From Hydrogenothermaceae bacterium (GTDB taxonomy: Bacteria; Aquificota; Aquificia; Aquificales; Hydrogenothermaceae), in assembly GCA_015519975.1 (NCBI GenBank), contig WIAL01000014.1, positions 1-36,724 of the forward strand: DNA of 36,724 nucleotides. The letters run 5' to 3'. The position numbers and the translations under genes are program-made. A model generated the notes under the pieces. That model had not been told where the DNA came from and searched no databases. It saw only the letters and a list, made by a program, of their open reading frames with translations. Numbering within the stretch: position 1 is the stretch's first letter; each line of letters starts with the position of its first letter. Shown here piece by piece: positions 20,252 to 27,741 of this stretch.

Positions 20252-21217
20252 TTATAATACAGTTATTGTTGTTACAGCTGTGCCAATAACATTTCTACCT
20301 TTGATATCATAATAATCAACTGTTGCATAATATGTTCCAGAAGCAGGCATAGTTAAGAGAATGTCGTATCTTTCTCCTGGAGAAATATAAAGAGATGTTT
20401 TTGTAAGAGGCTGTGGTAGAGGTCTTCCATCAGAAGCAACTACATCAAATGAAAGTCCTCCCATTTTAACAACAGCAGGCTGATATGAAGTTTGATTTAA
20501 TCTAATCAATACTGTTTGTCCTGCAGGAGCTGAAATTGCAACAGTTGAATCATTAAATAAATTGCTTCCATCTACTCCGTTTATTAAGAAATATTTTGGG
20601 TTATATCTAACTGTTCCTGCTCCACTTACGCGCTGTGTATGCCATGAAGGATCAACTGTCCCGAGCTGCCATACATACTCTTTATCAAAGGAAGGTCCAC
20701 CATCCCAGATTGTAGTTAAACTACCGCTTGCCGGTCTTACAATAATAGTTCCAAACATACTCATTTCATAGTGTAAAACTGTATCAACGTGACAGTGATA
20801 TTGATAAGTCCCGGCATGTGGAGCTTTAAATGTGTAAGTATAGCTTGTTCCTAAACTTGTATATCCATCTACTCTTCCAAAATTACCCATCGGCCTTCCT
20901 ACATAGCCAGAAGTTGAAGGAACACCATCATTTGCCTGGTCAACATCAAGTCCATGTAAGTGAATTGTATGTGGCATTCCTGAGAATAAAGTTATTTCAG
21001 CTATATTTCCCTCTGTAACTTCAATAACAGGTCCTCCCCATTGTCTATCTCCGTTAAATCCGCTTCCAAAATACCATGTTCTAACACTTGTTCCGTCTGA
21101 TAAGTTAATTGAACCATCCATTCTTGCTCTAACTGTAACTATATCCGGACCTTCAAAAGCAAAAGTTCTTACTCCTGAAGTAGTTGTTGTTCCTCCACCA
21201 TTATTTCTTCTTCCCAT
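20252..21217 (-). CDS. Multicopper oxidase half B: two cupredoxin domains, no signal peptide
   Basis: This is a 321-residue protein of two cupredoxin domains. Domain 1 carries the complete C-terminal-type copper set of multicopper oxidases. HTIHLHG has H83, H86 and H88 in HxxHxH. HCHVDTVLHYEM has H141, C142, H143, H149 and M152, and supplies the type 1 copper Cys-His-Met and half of the trinuclear site. Domain 2 (from about 175) has a cupredoxin pattern but no copper histidines. The start MGRRNNGGG is fixed by GGAGGT just upstream. No hydrophobic segment follows it, so the protein has no export signal of its own. It lies 45 bases after half A, which has a Tat signal and the complementary histidines. 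An oxidase formed by both is inferred; the substrate is unknown. Confidence 0.82.
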   Translation of the reverse strand: MGRRNNGGGTTTTSGVRTFAFEGPDIVTVRARMDGSINLSDGTSVRTWYFGSGFNGDRQWGGPVIEVTEGNIAEITLFSGMPHTIHLHGLDVDQANDGVPSTSGYVGRPMGNFGRVDGYTSLGTSYTYTFKAPHAGTYQYHCHVDTVLHYEMSMFGTIIVRPASGSLTTIWDGGPSFDKEYVWQLGTVDPSWHTQRVSGAGTVRYNPKYFLINGVDGSNLFNDSTVAISAPAGQTVLIRLNQTSYQPAVVKMGGLSFDVVASDGRPLPQPLTKTSLYISPGERYDILLTMPASGTYYATVDYYDIKGRNVIGTAVTTITVL

Positions 21218-21262
21218 TTTATCTATACCTCCTAAATTTTCAAAATTTAAAGTTAAAAATTT

Positions 21263-22204
21263 TTAAGAAGCAAGCATTACAATTAATCCACCGCCATATG
21301 GGTTAACATAAACTCCATTGGCAGTAACACCGGGAACATAATGAGTATGAAGTGGATATGCTCCAGCCTGTATGACAGGTAAAATAACATCTACGCACTC
21401 TCCAACACCTACATTAATAGTATCTTTGTCAATAACATCTGTTACAGGAGTTCTATTCCTTGAAATGACGTTTACATGATATCCGTGAAAATGCATAGGA
21501 TAAATAATAGTTCCACCATTCATTAATCTAATTGCCACATTTTCTCCAACATTCATAGCAATTAAAGTATCACCATCAGATTTTGTATCTGGATAAGAAA
21601 GCCCATTTACAGTATAATAATTAGGTAGATAATCATCTATATTGTAAGTTCCTCCATTTGCTATAGCTGCGTTTAATCTATCATCATAGTCCTGTAAAAA
21701 TATTGTGTACTGTCTGTCAAAAGCAGGCCCTCCCTGGTATAATGTACTTGAACCATCAGCTGGCATAACCACCATAGGGCCTGCTAATCCCATAGCTTTT
21801 CCAATAAATCCATTTGCTGTATCACAGTAAACATAACTTCCTGCTGCTGGAGCAGTAAAAGTAAGTAAATAACTATCTCCAGGGTTTATATTTGGAGTTT
21901 GTATTGATGTCCCTTCAACTGTAAAATTAATGGGTCTGTCAAGATTATTTTGAATTGTTAAATTAACAGTATCTCCTTCAAGTAAAACCATTCCTGAAGG
22001 TAAAACTCCCGGTCCTTTACCATTTGGATCTGTAAACTGCCATACGTAAAGTGTGTTTTCATCTACCATTGTTTTTTGTGCACCTTCAGCTATCAAAGTT
22101 ATATCTACAGTAGCTGCAGATGCTCGCTTTGGAGCTAATGTGAGCCCTGAAGCCATAAATGCCATGGCCCCTAAACTTGTTTTGATGAAATCTCTTCTGT
22201 TCAT
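21263..22204 (-). CDS. Multicopper oxidase half A: Tat-exported two-cupredoxin protein
   Basis: This 313-residue protein begins MNRRDFIKTSLGAMAFMASG, a classical twin-arginine signal with probable cleavage after ASA near residue 30. Cupredoxin domain 1 lacks copper histidines. Domain 2 has MHFHGYHVNV (H238, H240, H243) and YPLHTHYVPG (H286, H288). This is the HxH/HxH set found in the N-terminal domain of multicopper oxidases, and the type 1 Cys is missing (HTH instead of HCH). Alone it could not hold a full type 1 plus trinuclear centre. The gene precedes half B, which carries exactly the missing motifs. GGAGGT precedes the ATG. Folding with copper in the cytoplasm before Tat export would suit a preassembled complex. 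Confidence 0.82.
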   Translation of the reverse strand: MNRRDFIKTSLGAMAFMASGLTLAPKRASAATVDITLIAEGAQKTMVDENTLYVWQFTDPNGKGPGVLPSGMVLLEGDTVNLTIQNNLDRPINFTVEGTSIQTPNINPGDSYLLTFTAPAAGSYVYCDTANGFIGKAMGLAGPMVVMPADGSSTLYQGGPAFDRQYTIFLQDYDDRLNAAIANGGTYNIDDYLPNYYTVNGLSYPDTKSDGDTLIAMNVGENVAIRLMNGGTIIYPMHFHGYHVNVISRNRTPVTDVIDKDTINVGVGECVDVILPVIQAGAYPLHTHYVPGVTANGVYVNPYGGGLIVMLAS

Positions 22205-23405: not shown

Positions 23406-25382
23406 ATGAGCAGGAAAAAAATAGTATTTAAAGATAAAAAAGAGTATAAAGATCATTTTTCAAAGCTTATAGAACTTGAAAGACAGGCAGAAAAAGAATT
23501 TCATCTTAATGAAATTAAAAATTTAACAGGAAAAGAAAGGGAAAAAAAGGGAAGAGCAGTTTTAAATTTAAAGGCAGTTTTTATTGGAGAGTTCATAGGA
23601 GGCTTCCTTGTTTACAAATTTTTTAGAGATGACATGCCCCAGCATCAGATAAATGTTGGAGATGTAGTTCTTATAAGCAGAAAACATCCTTTGAAAGATG
23701 GAGTAGAAGCAACTGTTTTTGAAAAAGGAAAAAATTACATAACGGTTTTGATTGGTCAAAAAATCTCTGCAGGTAAAAACTATAGAATAGATTTATATGT
23801 AAATGACATTACATTCAAAAGAATGCTGGCAAGTTTAGAATTTTTTGAAAAAGGATATTCATTATTTGATGATGAAATAGTTTTAGGGCATAAAAGTCCA
23901 TCTTTTGAAGAAAAAAATGAAAAGCTTGAAATCTTTAATAAAAACTTAAATAAATATCAGATAGAAGCTGTAGAAAAAGCAGTAAAAGCAAAACAGCTTT
24001 TCCTGATACACGGTCCTCCCGGAACAGGAAAGACAACTACTTTGTCAGAAGTGATATATCAGCATGTGAAAAAAGGTTATAAGTGTCTTGCAACAGCAGA
24101 CAGCAATACTGCCGTAGATAACGTAGCAGAAAAACTTGTAGATATGAATATTGAAATAGTAAGAATTGGACATCCTGCAAGACTTAGAGAAGAACTTTTA
24201 AACCAATCCCTTGATATGAAAATAGAACAACATCTAGAGTATCAAAAAATAAGAGAAATAAACAATAAAATTAACGATTTAAAACTACAACAAGAAGAAT
24301 TTATAAAGCCAACTGCACAAAGAAGAAGGGGACTTTCATACGATGAAATTTTAAAATATGCAAAAGAAGGAAAAAAAGTTAGAGGATACAAGGTAGAAAA
24401 ATTAAAGTCAATGGCCAATTGGATAGAACTTCAAAATCAGATAAAAAAACTTGTAGAAGAAAGACAAAAAATAGAAGAAAAAATCATAAATGAGATAATA
24501 GAAAATTCACAGGTTGTACTATCAACAAACACAGGAAGTCAGTCAGATTTTTTAAGGGATTATAGTTTTGATGTTATATTCATAGATGAAGCAGCACAGG
24601 CAACAGAACCTTCATGCCTTATGCCATTAATAAAAGGAAGAAAAGTGGTTATGGCAGGTGACCACAAACAACTCCCTCCAACTATTTTACATCCTGAAGC
24701 TAAAGATTTATCTTTTACAATGTTTGAAAGATTTACATATTTATATCCTGAAGTTAAATACATGCTGAAAATCCAGTACAGAATGAATGAAAAAATTATG
24801 AAATTTTCATCTCAGGAATTTTATAACAATGAATTAATAGCAGATGAATCAGTAAAAAATATAAAACTTTCAGATATTACAGGTAAAACAGGTAATGACC
24901 CTATTACAGATGATACACCTATAGTTTTTGTAGATACGGAGGGTAAATTTTTAGAAAAGAGAAAAAAAGGAAGTCAGTCCAAGTATAATCCAGAAGAGGC
25001 AAAGCTTGTAAAACTTATTACGCAAAAACTAATAGAAATTGGAGTAAATCCTTCAGATATCGGAATAATAACTCCTTATAAAGATCACGAAGATTATTTA
25101 AAAAAACTTATAAAAAATGTTGAAATAAAAACAGTTGACGGTTTTCAGGGAAGGGAGAAAGAAGTGATAATCATTTCTTTAGTCCGTTCAAATCCAGAAG
25201 AGGAAATAGGATTTTTAGATGATATTAGAAGATTAAATGTTGCGCTGACAAGAGCAAAAAGGAAGTTAATAATTGTTGGAGATGTTAATACATTAAAATC
25301 TAATAGAATATATAACAAACTTATCAATTATATAAAAGAAAACGGGAAGTTAACTACCTTCCCATCTGTCATGAAAACGTGA
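23406..25382 (+). CDS. Superfamily 1 DNA/RNA helicase (IGHMBP2/UPF1-like)
   Basis: This is a 658-residue SF1B helicase. The N-terminal part (about 1-175) includes a beta-barrel-like region. The Walker A motif HGPPGTGKTTT is near residue 202-212. The first core is interrupted by a charged helical insertion (about 275-365). Motif II is IDEAAQATEPS (about 392), motif III is GDHKQLPPT, and motifs V-VI are TVDGFQGREKEVIIISLVRS and RRLNVALTRAKRK. This belongs to the IGHMBP2/Dna2-like branch found in Aquificota, archaea and some thermophiles; the substrate (DNA or RNA) is not known. The ribosome site is weak. The last 33 bases overlap the 3' end of the convergent small membrane protein gene. Confidence 0.9.
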   Translation: MSRKKIVFKDKKEYKDHFSKLIELERQAEKEFHLNEIKNLTGKEREKKGRAVLNLKAVFIGEFIGGFLVYKFFRDDMPQHQINVGDVVLISRKHPLKDGVEATVFEKGKNYITVLIGQKISAGKNYRIDLYVNDITFKRMLASLEFFEKGYSLFDDEIVLGHKSPSFEEKNEKLEIFNKNLNKYQIEAVEKAVKAKQLFLIHGPPGTGKTTTLSEVIYQHVKKGYKCLATADSNTAVDNVAEKLVDMNIEIVRIGHPARLREELLNQSLDMKIEQHLEYQKIREINNKINDLKLQQEEFIKPTAQRRRGLSYDEILKYAKEGKKVRGYKVEKLKSMANWIELQNQIKKLVEERQKIEEKIINEIIENSQVVLSTNTGSQSDFLRDYSFDVIFIDEAAQATEPSCLMPLIKGRKVVMAGDHKQLPPTILHPEAKDLSFTMFERFTYLYPEVKYMLKIQYRMNEKIMKFSSQEFYNNELIADESVKNIKLSDITGKTGNDPITDDTPIVFVDTEGKFLEKRKKGSQSKYNPEEAKLVKLITQKLIEIGVNPSDIGIITPYKDHEDYLKKLIKNVEIKTVDGFQGREKEVIIISLVRSNPEEEIGFLDDIRRLNVALTRAKRKLIIVGDVNTLKSNRIYNKLINYIKENGKLTTFPSVMKT

Positions 25383-25652
25383 AACAAACCACCACATACC
25401 TTGTGGTACGAATAAATATACAACTGCACTAAAAATCACTATGCTTTTCCAAAAAAAAGAGAGAAAATCAGGTAAAACCATAAATACTGCAAAAATAAAT
25501 TGAAGAACTGCAAATATATACGAAATTTTTTCAAATTTTTTAATTTTGCTTATTTTTGAAAACCCATAGAGAAGCGTATAAATTCCAGCAAAAAGCACCA
25601 TAAAGAAACCAGACAGCATAATTAATGTTATATTTCCTAATACCTCATGCAT
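25350..25652 (-). CDS. Small three-helix membrane protein of the nor operon
   Basis: This is a 100-residue protein with three predicted membrane segments: about residues 6-30, 44-62 and 67-88. It ends in MWWFVSRFHDRWEGS. The start overlaps the norB stop codon by eight bases (ATGCATGA), so it is translated together with norB and is probably a partner or assembly factor of nitric oxide reductase. There are no heme- or metal-binding motifs and I do not recognise the family. It does not resemble NorD, NorE or NorQ. The last 33 bases overlap the end of the helicase gene on the other strand. Confidence 0.72.
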   Translation of the reverse strand: MHEVLGNITLIMLSGFFMVLFAGIYTLLYGFSKISKIKKFEKISYIFAVLQFIFAVFMVLPDFLSFFWKSIVIFSAVVYLFVPQGMWWFVSRFHDRWEGS

Positions 25653-27057
25653 GAGCTACCTCTTCTACAGCGGTTTTTTCTTCTTTTTTACCTATTGTTA
25701 AAAGGTCAACTATAAGCAGTATATATCCAATTAACATTAAAAAGCCAAAGCCAAATCTCCAATACATAGGTTCAACCATCCACGGATGTAAATGTGCATT
25801 TATATAAGCCTGCCATGTACTTCCACCAACAGCCCTTTCTATTTCAGTTTGTGCAAATCCAGCAACCATCATAGATCCTGCCATTCCTATTATGGATATT
25901 ATCATAAGTACATATGCATATTTCCACAGTTTACTGTCCATTAATTTAACTTCTCCTCCTCTAATTTTATGAACCATAATATAAGCAACTGCTATATTTG
26001 TTGTTACATAAGCTCCAAAAAATGCAAGGTGTCCATGAGATGCTGCAAGTTGAGTACCGTGAGAGTATAAATTTATCTGAGGAAGAGTTTGCATAAATCC
26101 CCAAACACCAGCACCAATAAAGTTTCCAAAAGCCTGTGCAAGTATCCAGAATAAAGCTGGTTTGTTTACAGTTTTTAATCTTTGAACTCCTGCATCATAA
26201 ACAGCATGAATTATCATTGCAACCAGAGGTATAGGTTCTAAAGCTGAGAAAAAGCCTCCAATTCCAAGCCAATATTCTGGAGTACCAATCCAAAAATAAT
26301 GATGTCCAAGACCAAGTATACCTGTACCAAAAACTAAAAACACTTCAAGATAAAGCCATCCTTCAACTATTTTTCTTGGAGTTTTTAAAACATACATTAA
26401 AGCAAGAGCCATAATACAGCCAATTAAAACTTCCCACGTTGCCTCAACCCATAGATGTATTACCCACCACCAGAAGTACTGGTCTAAAGAAATATTTACT
26501 GTGTAAAACATTCCAGCAAGGTAAAGACCAGCTAAAGCAACAAGGTCTATCATTAAAACGCCCATTATTCCTGTAATTTTTTTAGAGGCAAAAACAGTTG
26601 CAAAAACATTGTATAAAAACACTAAAACTACTATTACTATACCTATATCTGCCCATCTTGGAGCTTCTATGTATTCTCTGCCTTCATTAATGAACCAGAG
26701 GGAAATTTTATTTCCTGCTCCTGTCTGTACAAAGATATAAACAAGTATAACTACTGTAAGGGCTGCAAGAAGGATAAAAAATGCTAATTTCCCAAGCTTT
26801 ATTCCAACAGTTTCTCTACCTGTTTCAACAGGTAAAAACCAGTAAACAGCCCCTATAAATCCCATTAAAAGCCACACAACCATTGCATTAATATGTAAAA
26901 TTCTGCCTATATTAAAGTTAAAAATTCCAAATAAAAAATCTGGGTTTAGATATTGATAGGCAATCAAAAGCCCAAATAAAATTTGAGCTCCGAAAAGGAC
27001 AAGAGCTGCTGACATATACCACAGACCTAATTTTTGTGATTCGTATAAGTTATTCAT
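25645..27057 (-). CDS. norB: Nitric oxide reductase subunit B (cNOR)
   Basis: NorB reduces 2 NO to N2O with electrons from NorC. This is a 470-residue, about 12-helix membrane protein of the heme-copper oxidase superfamily. The catalytic ligands are all present and correctly spaced. H201 and E205 are in VIHLWVEATWE, H252 and H253 in LGLGHHYFW, E274 in FSALEPIP, and H341 and H343 in AASHGHLAFFG. H55 in RILHINAMV is the other low-spin heme b ligand. The extra glutamates that distinguish NOR from oxidases (E205, E274) mark it as a true NOR, not cbb3 oxidase. There is no N-terminal quinol-oxidising extension, so it is the cytochrome c type. GGGAGG precedes the ATG. Confidence 0.95.
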   Translation of the reverse strand: MNNLYESQKLGLWYMSAALVLFGAQILFGLLIAYQYLNPDFLFGIFNFNIGRILHINAMVVWLLMGFIGAVYWFLPVETGRETVGIKLGKLAFFILLAALTVVILVYIFVQTGAGNKISLWFINEGREYIEAPRWADIGIVIVVLVFLYNVFATVFASKKITGIMGVLMIDLVALAGLYLAGMFYTVNISLDQYFWWWVIHLWVEATWEVLIGCIMALALMYVLKTPRKIVEGWLYLEVFLVFGTGILGLGHHYFWIGTPEYWLGIGGFFSALEPIPLVAMIIHAVYDAGVQRLKTVNKPALFWILAQAFGNFIGAGVWGFMQTLPQINLYSHGTQLAASHGHLAFFGAYVTTNIAVAYIMVHKIRGGEVKLMDSKLWKYAYVLMIISIIGMAGSMMVAGFAQTEIERAVGGSTWQAYINAHLHPWMVEPMYWRFGFGFLMLIGYILLIVDLLTIGKKEEKTAVEEVAHA

Positions 27058-27072
27058 TTTTACTTCCTCCCT

Positions 27073-27741
27073 TTATTTTTGTGAGCTTAAGAAATTATCA
27101 GGAAAGCCATTTGTATCTATAGCAGACATCCATTTAAGATAAGCTACAACAGCTTTTGCCTCTTTTTCTGATAAATGCATATTTGGCATTCTGCGTGTAA
27201 ATGTTGGATATTTATCTGTATTCATAAGCCATTTTACTATTGCCTCTTCTTTTGTCTTTGCGTTAACCATATTTTTTATAAGTAAATTCCATTTTGGGTC
27301 AAGCCATGCTTTTGTTAAATCAGGAGCATAATAAGCACCATTCCCTAAAAGTGTATGACAGTCCATACACGCCCTTGATTGTATTGTCATTTTTCCAATA
27401 TTTAAAAGTTCTTCAGCTTCATTTTTAGACCATATTTTTCCAAAAAACTTCTCCTGCCCTTCTATTTTAGGTACAAACCTGTGTTTTTCGTCTGAATATA
27501 CATAGCTGATTTTTTTGTTTATAACGGTAGCATCAGGAATTCTGTCAGTTCCCATTGAAATTTTAGACAGTGTATCAACAGTCAAAACAAGAAGCACAGC
27601 AACCATAATAATTGATGTTATTAAAGCAGTTCTTTTCCAGAAATTTGGTTCAAGCCAGCTTTTACCTCTTACAAAAATTGCAGATACTACAATAGATAGG
27701 AATATTGCAAAGACAATAATCTCCAACCAGTTAAAATTCAT
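27073..27741 (-). CDS. norC: Nitric oxide reductase subunit C (cytochrome c)
   Basis: NorC is the membrane-anchored c-type cytochrome that passes electrons to NorB. This protein has 222 residues, clearly longer than the roughly 146 of Pseudomonas NorC. The heme-binding motif is CMDCH (C125, C128, H129) and the likely axial Met is in TRRMPNMHLS near the C-terminus. Two membrane segments are seen, at about 4-24 and 37-57, where classical NorC has one. The extra length also includes an extended linker (about 60-115). AGGAGGGG lies upstream of the ATG. It is the first gene of norC-norB-small membrane protein. Confidence 0.9.
   Translation of the reverse strand: MNFNWLEIIVFAIFLSIVVSAIFVRGKSWLEPNFWKRTALITSIIMVAVLLVLTVDTLSKISMGTDRIPDATVINKKISYVYSDEKHRFVPKIEGQEKFFGKIWSKNEAEELLNIGKMTIQSRACMDCHTLLGNGAYYAPDLTKAWLDPKWNLLIKNMVNAKTKEEAIVKWLMNTDKYPTFTRRMPNMHLSEKEAKAVVAYLKWMSAIDTNGFPDNFLSSQK

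Follow-up and report, generated by a model that had tools for sequence, protein, structure and literature searches.

Multicopper oxidases pass electrons from a type 1 copper, over a His-Cys-His bridge, to a trinuclear copper centre at which O2 is reduced to water. To our knowledge, textbook descriptions place the active site of these enzymes either within one chain or between identical chains. The two proteins described here, A and B, find their best matches among solved structures in the type C oxidases, namely the blue copper oxidase of Nitrosomonas europaea (3g5w) and a metagenomic laccase (2zwn), with best E values of 3e-15 for A and 4e-19 for B. Two-domain multicopper oxidases assemble as homotrimers, and their active site is located between two monomers (PMC3192119); the type 1 copper of type C is bound in the N-terminal domain (PMC13151041). 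A type C chain comprises two cupredoxin domains, as do A and B. Its domain 1 carries the type 1 ligands together with the HxH and HCH motifs, its domain 2 carries two HxH motifs, and the trinuclear site is inter-subunit. The same ligand layout is found across the A/B pair, with domain 1 provided by B and domain 2 by A. Whereas the type C chain holds both half sites and associates into a homotrimer (PMC3192119, PMC13151041), the half sites of A and B reside on two chains, each of them incomplete.

The window, which is the entire stretch of 36,724 nucleotides of contig WIAL01000014.1 analyzed here, from a Hydrogenothermaceae bacterium, encodes A and B next to one another. An earlier note, made from the letters of this DNA, had proposed that the two proteins form a hetero-oligomer with the active site at the interface of A domain 2 (A2) and B domain 1 (B1). 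The proposal is well supported by the adjacency of the genes, the mirrored trees, the covariation of the export signals, the existence of single-chain relatives and the predicted structure. We consider it very probable that A and B are different subunits of one multicopper oxidase, derived from a type C enzyme by duplication and complementary ligand loss, with the active site between A2 and B1.

Gene layout and copper ligands

The pair forms a bicistron on the minus strand, in which A is followed in the 5' to 3' direction by the intergenic gap and then by B (Table 1). The earlier note gave the correct coordinates for both genes and left out the strand. A good ribosome-binding site precedes A and B alike. 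In the window the two genes share the same reading frame, and the TAA codon of A is the sole in-frame stop between them. The pair is single-copy in this genome; its G+C content is 37–38% compared with 30% for the window, and its third-position G+C resembles that of the neighbouring genes. Both proteins score above the cut-offs of the Pfam profiles PF07731, PF07732 and PF00394. These Cu-oxidase profile matches place both in the multicopper oxidase superfamily, and the two proteins are homologous to each other.

Table 1 Features of the A/B gene pair, in window coordinates.
Feature	Position	Strand	Remarks
Gene A, two-cupredoxin protein with Tat signal peptide	21263..22204	-	313 aa
Tat signal of A (MNRRDFIKTSLGAMAFMASGLTLAPKRASA)	22115..22204	-	PF10518 match at E 0.003, short of the cut-off
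A domain 2 trinuclear ligands H238-F-H240 (HFHGYH)	21485..21493	-	27/27 A
A domain 2 trinuclear ligands H286-T-H288	21341..21349	-	27/27 A, 0/25 B
Intergenic gap with AGGAGG ribosome-binding site ahead of B	21218..21262	-	45 nt
Gene B, two-cupredoxin protein without signal peptide	20252..21217	-	321 aa
B domain 1 ligands H83 (type 1), H86 and H88 (trinuclear)	20954..20971	-	25/25 B
B domain 1 ligands H141-C142-H143...H149...M154 (type 1 and trinuclear)	20756..20797	-	25/25 B; Cys 0/27 A

The copper ligands were compared in an alignment of 27 A proteins, 25 B proteins and four single-chain relatives (from Halorussus, Haloprofundus and two Deinococcus). The window A contains five histidine residues in total (H238, H240, H243, H286 and H288), and domain 2 holds all of them. 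The ligands of B, namely H83, H86, H88, the HCH motif at residues 141–143, H149 and M152/M154, are confined to domain 1, and the domain 2 ligands are absent. The four domain 2 histidines are present in all A proteins and in 4/4 single-chain relatives. B is devoid of them except for one stray histidine in one column (0/25 at the position of A H238 and 1/23 at that of A H240). Each of the eight ligand columns of domain 1 is occupied in 25/25 B proteins and 4/4 single-chain relatives, and no A protein has the whole set. Seven of the eight are filled in at most two of the 27 A proteins, and the column of H83, where 12 of the 27 have histidine, makes no site alone. A Cys127 aligns with B His141, and the column of the type 1 cysteine is occupied in A by Asp128. 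The ligand assignments of the earlier note hold for the window proteins: HFHGYH and HTH in A domain 2, no type 1 cysteine in A, HxxHxH and HCHx5Hx2M in B domain 1, no ligands in the other domain of each protein, and one complete site only when the chains are taken jointly.

The full set of type 1 ligands and eight trinuclear histidines is thus supplied by A and B together and by neither chain singly. Both half sites occur on one chain in 4/4 single-chain relatives, in 0/27 A and in 0/25 B proteins, which makes the pair a variant of type C and not a member of it, although its mode of action would be expected to be that of a type C oxidase. As the complementary pattern is kept in all relatives examined, it is not a matter of chance. 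The single-chain proteins presumably represent the complete, ancestral state. At the level of sequence, A resembles a type C chain reduced to its domain 2 half site, and B one reduced to its domain 1 half site. Two additional histidines are conserved. A His243 (21476–21478), part of an HxHxxH motif, is invariant in 27/27 A proteins, and none of the four single-chain relatives has it. B His193 (20639–20641), located within the metal-free domain 2, is present in 24/25 B proteins.

Distribution, co-evolution and export signals

The A and B genes adjoin one another at 40 loci (10, 21 and 8 loci, the eight being L042, L055, L062, L073, L075, L076, L081 and L102, plus the window), in Gammaproteobacteria, Campylobacterota, Alphaproteobacteria and the genome of the window. 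Every locus with enough flanking sequence has the partner gene alongside, and lone A or B genes turned up only at contig edges. The other matches to A or B are at contig ends (L011, L032, L022, L058 and L065), and the genome G107 contains a B-B tandem on a contig that stops where A would be expected. In a sample of 369 genomes, A occurs in 21, B in 23 and both in 20; in the four genomes with one family only, the gene either sits at the end of a contig or has a fragment of its partner next to it. The order is mostly A-B, with B-A in Lysobacterales and B-A-B at L006. Among the loci examined, neither a natural A-B fusion nor a fused open frame was seen. The earlier note had suggested searching for genomes in which the two genes are fused or always adjacent, and had regarded regular occurrence of either gene alone as evidence against a hetero-oligomer; the survey returned constant adjacency, and such regular lone occurrence was not encountered.

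Except for one weak match (1.7e-6) to a longer protein, A was not found in 60 relatives, five of them of the same genus, and searching the wider phylum and the orders to which two relatives belong added little. The nearest relatives of A are 55–68% identical and belong to Gammaproteobacteria and Campylobacterota. This placement of the nearest relatives suggests horizontal transfer. The isolate Indioceanicola profundi has two plasmids with one pair on each.

Several variations on the gene pair were observed. Some genomes contain two B genes (L006 233–3002, B-A-B; G107 contig C80/L048, B-B), and the domain 1 ligands are complete in both copies; as a guess, the duplicated B would fit an assembly of one A with two B. 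A long Gly/Met-rich tail (GGMGGMGG) precedes the first domain in many B proteins (L026, L027, L029, L036 and L037), and possibly binds Cu(I); the tail is short in the window B. In L077 and L082 (Pseudomonadota), a single gene combines an N-terminal membrane part, denoted DUF4396 in plasmid records, with a two-domain multicopper oxidase.

In an unrooted tree obtained by a quick search, A forms one clade and B another, separated by a branch with 99% SH-aLRT support. The single-chain proteins are located between the two clades, and the subfamilies match in both halves. The pairwise distances among A proteins correlate with those among B proteins with a Mantel r of 0.90 (24 pairs, 0/5000 permutations), a value that includes a contribution of shared species history and by itself is not proof of contact. 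Judged from these trees and distances, A and B diverged long ago and have since been passed on as partners.

The Tat pathway carries folded proteins and complexes, and the Sec pathway carries unfolded chains. The twin arginine of A is invariant in 11 aligned close relatives, and TatC is encoded in the window's genome. In 19 of the 20 pairs with a Tat signal on A, B is without a signal, defined as the lack of a hydrophobic N-terminal segment (maximum hydropathy <1.0). All four pairs with a Sec signal on A (4/4) have a separate one on B, with maximum B hydropathy of 2.3–2.7; these pairs form one clade and perhaps reflect a single event. The exception among the Tat pairs is the B protein of L021, which has its own lipoprotein-like signal, with the start of that signal further in. 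The B proteins of L014 and L048, both outside the count of 20 pairs, have lipobox-like N-termini. For the window B, a hidden signal in the upstream in-frame space is excluded. The combination of Tat-signal A with signal-less B and of Sec-signal A with Sec-signal B is the pattern predicted for a preassembled A-B complex. It suggests that A and B leave through Tat as folded complexes, such that B, usually devoid of a signal, probably exits the cell by hitch-hiking on folded A.

Joint model, proposed mechanism and alternative explanations

A structure was predicted for the A-B read-through frame with the signal removed and the TAA codon read as Q, using an alignment of 29 rows in which the placement of A and B had been checked. 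The resulting AlphaFold joint model has a pLDDT of 87.6 and a pTM of 0.87; prediction of the same frame without an alignment yielded a pLDDT of 36 and was discarded. The four domains appear to take the ring order A1-A2-B1-B2 with A2 touching B1, in a chain where A and B are connected by 16 non-native residues that favour proximity. The structure prediction that the earlier note had suggested as a check thus gives a confidently folded joint chain with A domain 2 beside B domain 1, artificial linker included. The top structural matches of the model are the six-domain ring proteins ceruloplasmin and coagulation factors V/VIII, with >700 alignment columns and a TMq of about 0.6. One unit of the model aligns with the type C oxidase 3g5w with an RMSD of 3.0 Å.

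As the trinuclear site of type C is already inter-subunit, duplication and complementary loss would be enough to produce the pair and no cut of the chain is needed. The parent would have been a type C homotrimer, with its trinuclear centre where domain 2 of a subunit meets domain 1 of the adjacent one. Following duplication, the ligands of domain 1 would have disappeared from the A copy and those of domain 2 from the B copy. Given these complementary losses, for which the ligand sets are read from sequence and the contact is inferred, an active site would exist only at the A2-B1 contact. By analogy with the family, the type 1 copper of B1 would oxidise the substrate and its electrons would pass via His-Cys-His to the trinuclear centre common to B1 and A2, which would reduce O2 to water. 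The four domains amount to two thirds of a ring, and one further A or B subunit may complete it. Either such a closed six-domain ring or an open A-B heterodimer is the probable quaternary form. A trimer of A and B in which all interfaces are equivalent is impossible, hence a trimer could contain no more than one trinuclear site.

Genes near some relatives encode a metal P-type ATPase, CopB, MerR and a three-domain oxidase, and a two-component system is found near the Campylobacterota pairs. In the window, no copper-related genes adjoin the pair. The copper-tolerance genes beside some relatives hint at a role in periplasmic copper or substrate oxidation. Elsewhere in the window, positions 25353–27741 (minus strand) encode a COX1-family subunit I of a heme-copper oxidase, together with a membrane cytochrome c and a small protein of 100 aa, a group that resembles the NorBC nitric oxide reductase set.

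Other explanations of the pair were weighed against these data. B might work alone, as a homotrimer that uses its type 1 copper for electron transfer or copper binding; A might then be either a copper chaperone in its own right or a paralogue in decay. A type 1 copper requires only the domain 1 ligands of B, which are all present, tandem B genes exist (L006 and G107), and the annotation of one of the two I. profundi pairs lists A as a hypothetical protein adjoining a multicopper oxidase, B. We regard this explanation as improbable, because decay would not be expected to spare just the four trinuclear histidines that are invariant in A, B likewise keeps in 25/25 sequences four trinuclear histidines that are not all required for type 1 copper, and A is never found without B, contig edges aside. 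It is still less probable that A and B form separate homotrimers, each with its own interface copper, for example of a nitrite-reductase-like or copper-storage kind. An A homotrimer would have no domain 1 ligands and a B homotrimer no domain 2 ligands, and so neither would contain a trinuclear centre or a nitrite reductase type 2 site, and the mirrored trees and obligate pairing fit one complex. What favours separate homotrimers is that both proteins match TIGR02376, the model of copper nitrite reductase, weakly (E values of 1e-12 and 1e-9) and that the fold is common to them. Copper nitrite reductase (NirK) itself, in which one chain unites type 1 copper in domain 1 with a type 2 copper histidine of domain 2, was rejected as an assignment, with 48 and 38 bits against the TIGR02376 cut-off of 296 and no domain 2 histidine ligand in B.

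The interval between A and B contains one TAA and otherwise no in-frame stop, as would be expected if a recent stop codon or a sequencing error had interrupted a single four-domain protein. This can practically be dismissed, as B possesses its own ribosome-binding site and separate A and B genes recur across dozens of genomes, with different relative frames and also with the order reversed, and with no fused open frame found. The same three observations, namely the B ribosome-binding site, the other frames and the reverse order elsewhere, rule out a recent split of a fused gene. The assignment of A and B as different subunits of one oxidase accommodates these observations, and extends with reasonable likelihood to a widespread class of obligate hetero-oligomers, characterized by complementary half-site loss, one ceruloplasmin-like site per ring, cytoplasmic assembly and Tat export in the folded state on the signal of one subunit.

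Comparison with known oxidases and exported complexes

A large survey of multicopper oxidases dropped every sequence in which one of the four copper-binding regions was missing (PMC3192119), a filter that would discard every A and every B, and the family may therefore have been missed. In the literature searched, to which most subscription papers did not belong, no heteromeric, split or two-subunit multicopper oxidase was found, and the same accessible part of the literature yielded no multicopper oxidase that hitch-hikes through Tat. The Mnx manganese oxidase of Bacillus (MnxE3F3G) resembles A/B in that a multicopper oxidase is found within a complex of different proteins (PMC5622069). It differs in that MnxG itself is the oxidase chain, while MnxE and MnxF, which have no known homologues, bind extra copper (PMC5622069).

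With regard to export, the signal-less B beside a Tat-signal A in a genome that encodes TatC is, at the sequence level, the arrangement of a Tat hitch-hiker complex. In such complexes, for example the periplasmic hydrogenases, one subunit has the Tat signal and its partner has none. The signal-peptide pattern of the A/B pairs offers a new system for the study of folded-complex Tat export.

Ceruloplasmin and factors V/VIII share with the joint model the ring order of cupredoxin domains. Ceruloplasmin-like rings contain one trinuclear site and their other interfaces have none, which is the layout proposed here for A-B. Unlike A/B, ceruloplasmin and factors V/VIII are each one long animal polypeptide, with 12–15% identity, and the positions of the type 1 domains in ceruloplasmin-type proteins differ from those in A/B. 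The natural A-B version would illustrate cleanly how complementary degeneration can convert a homomer into an obligate heteromer, and might be a bacterial counterpart of the transition from a two-domain trimer to ceruloplasmin.
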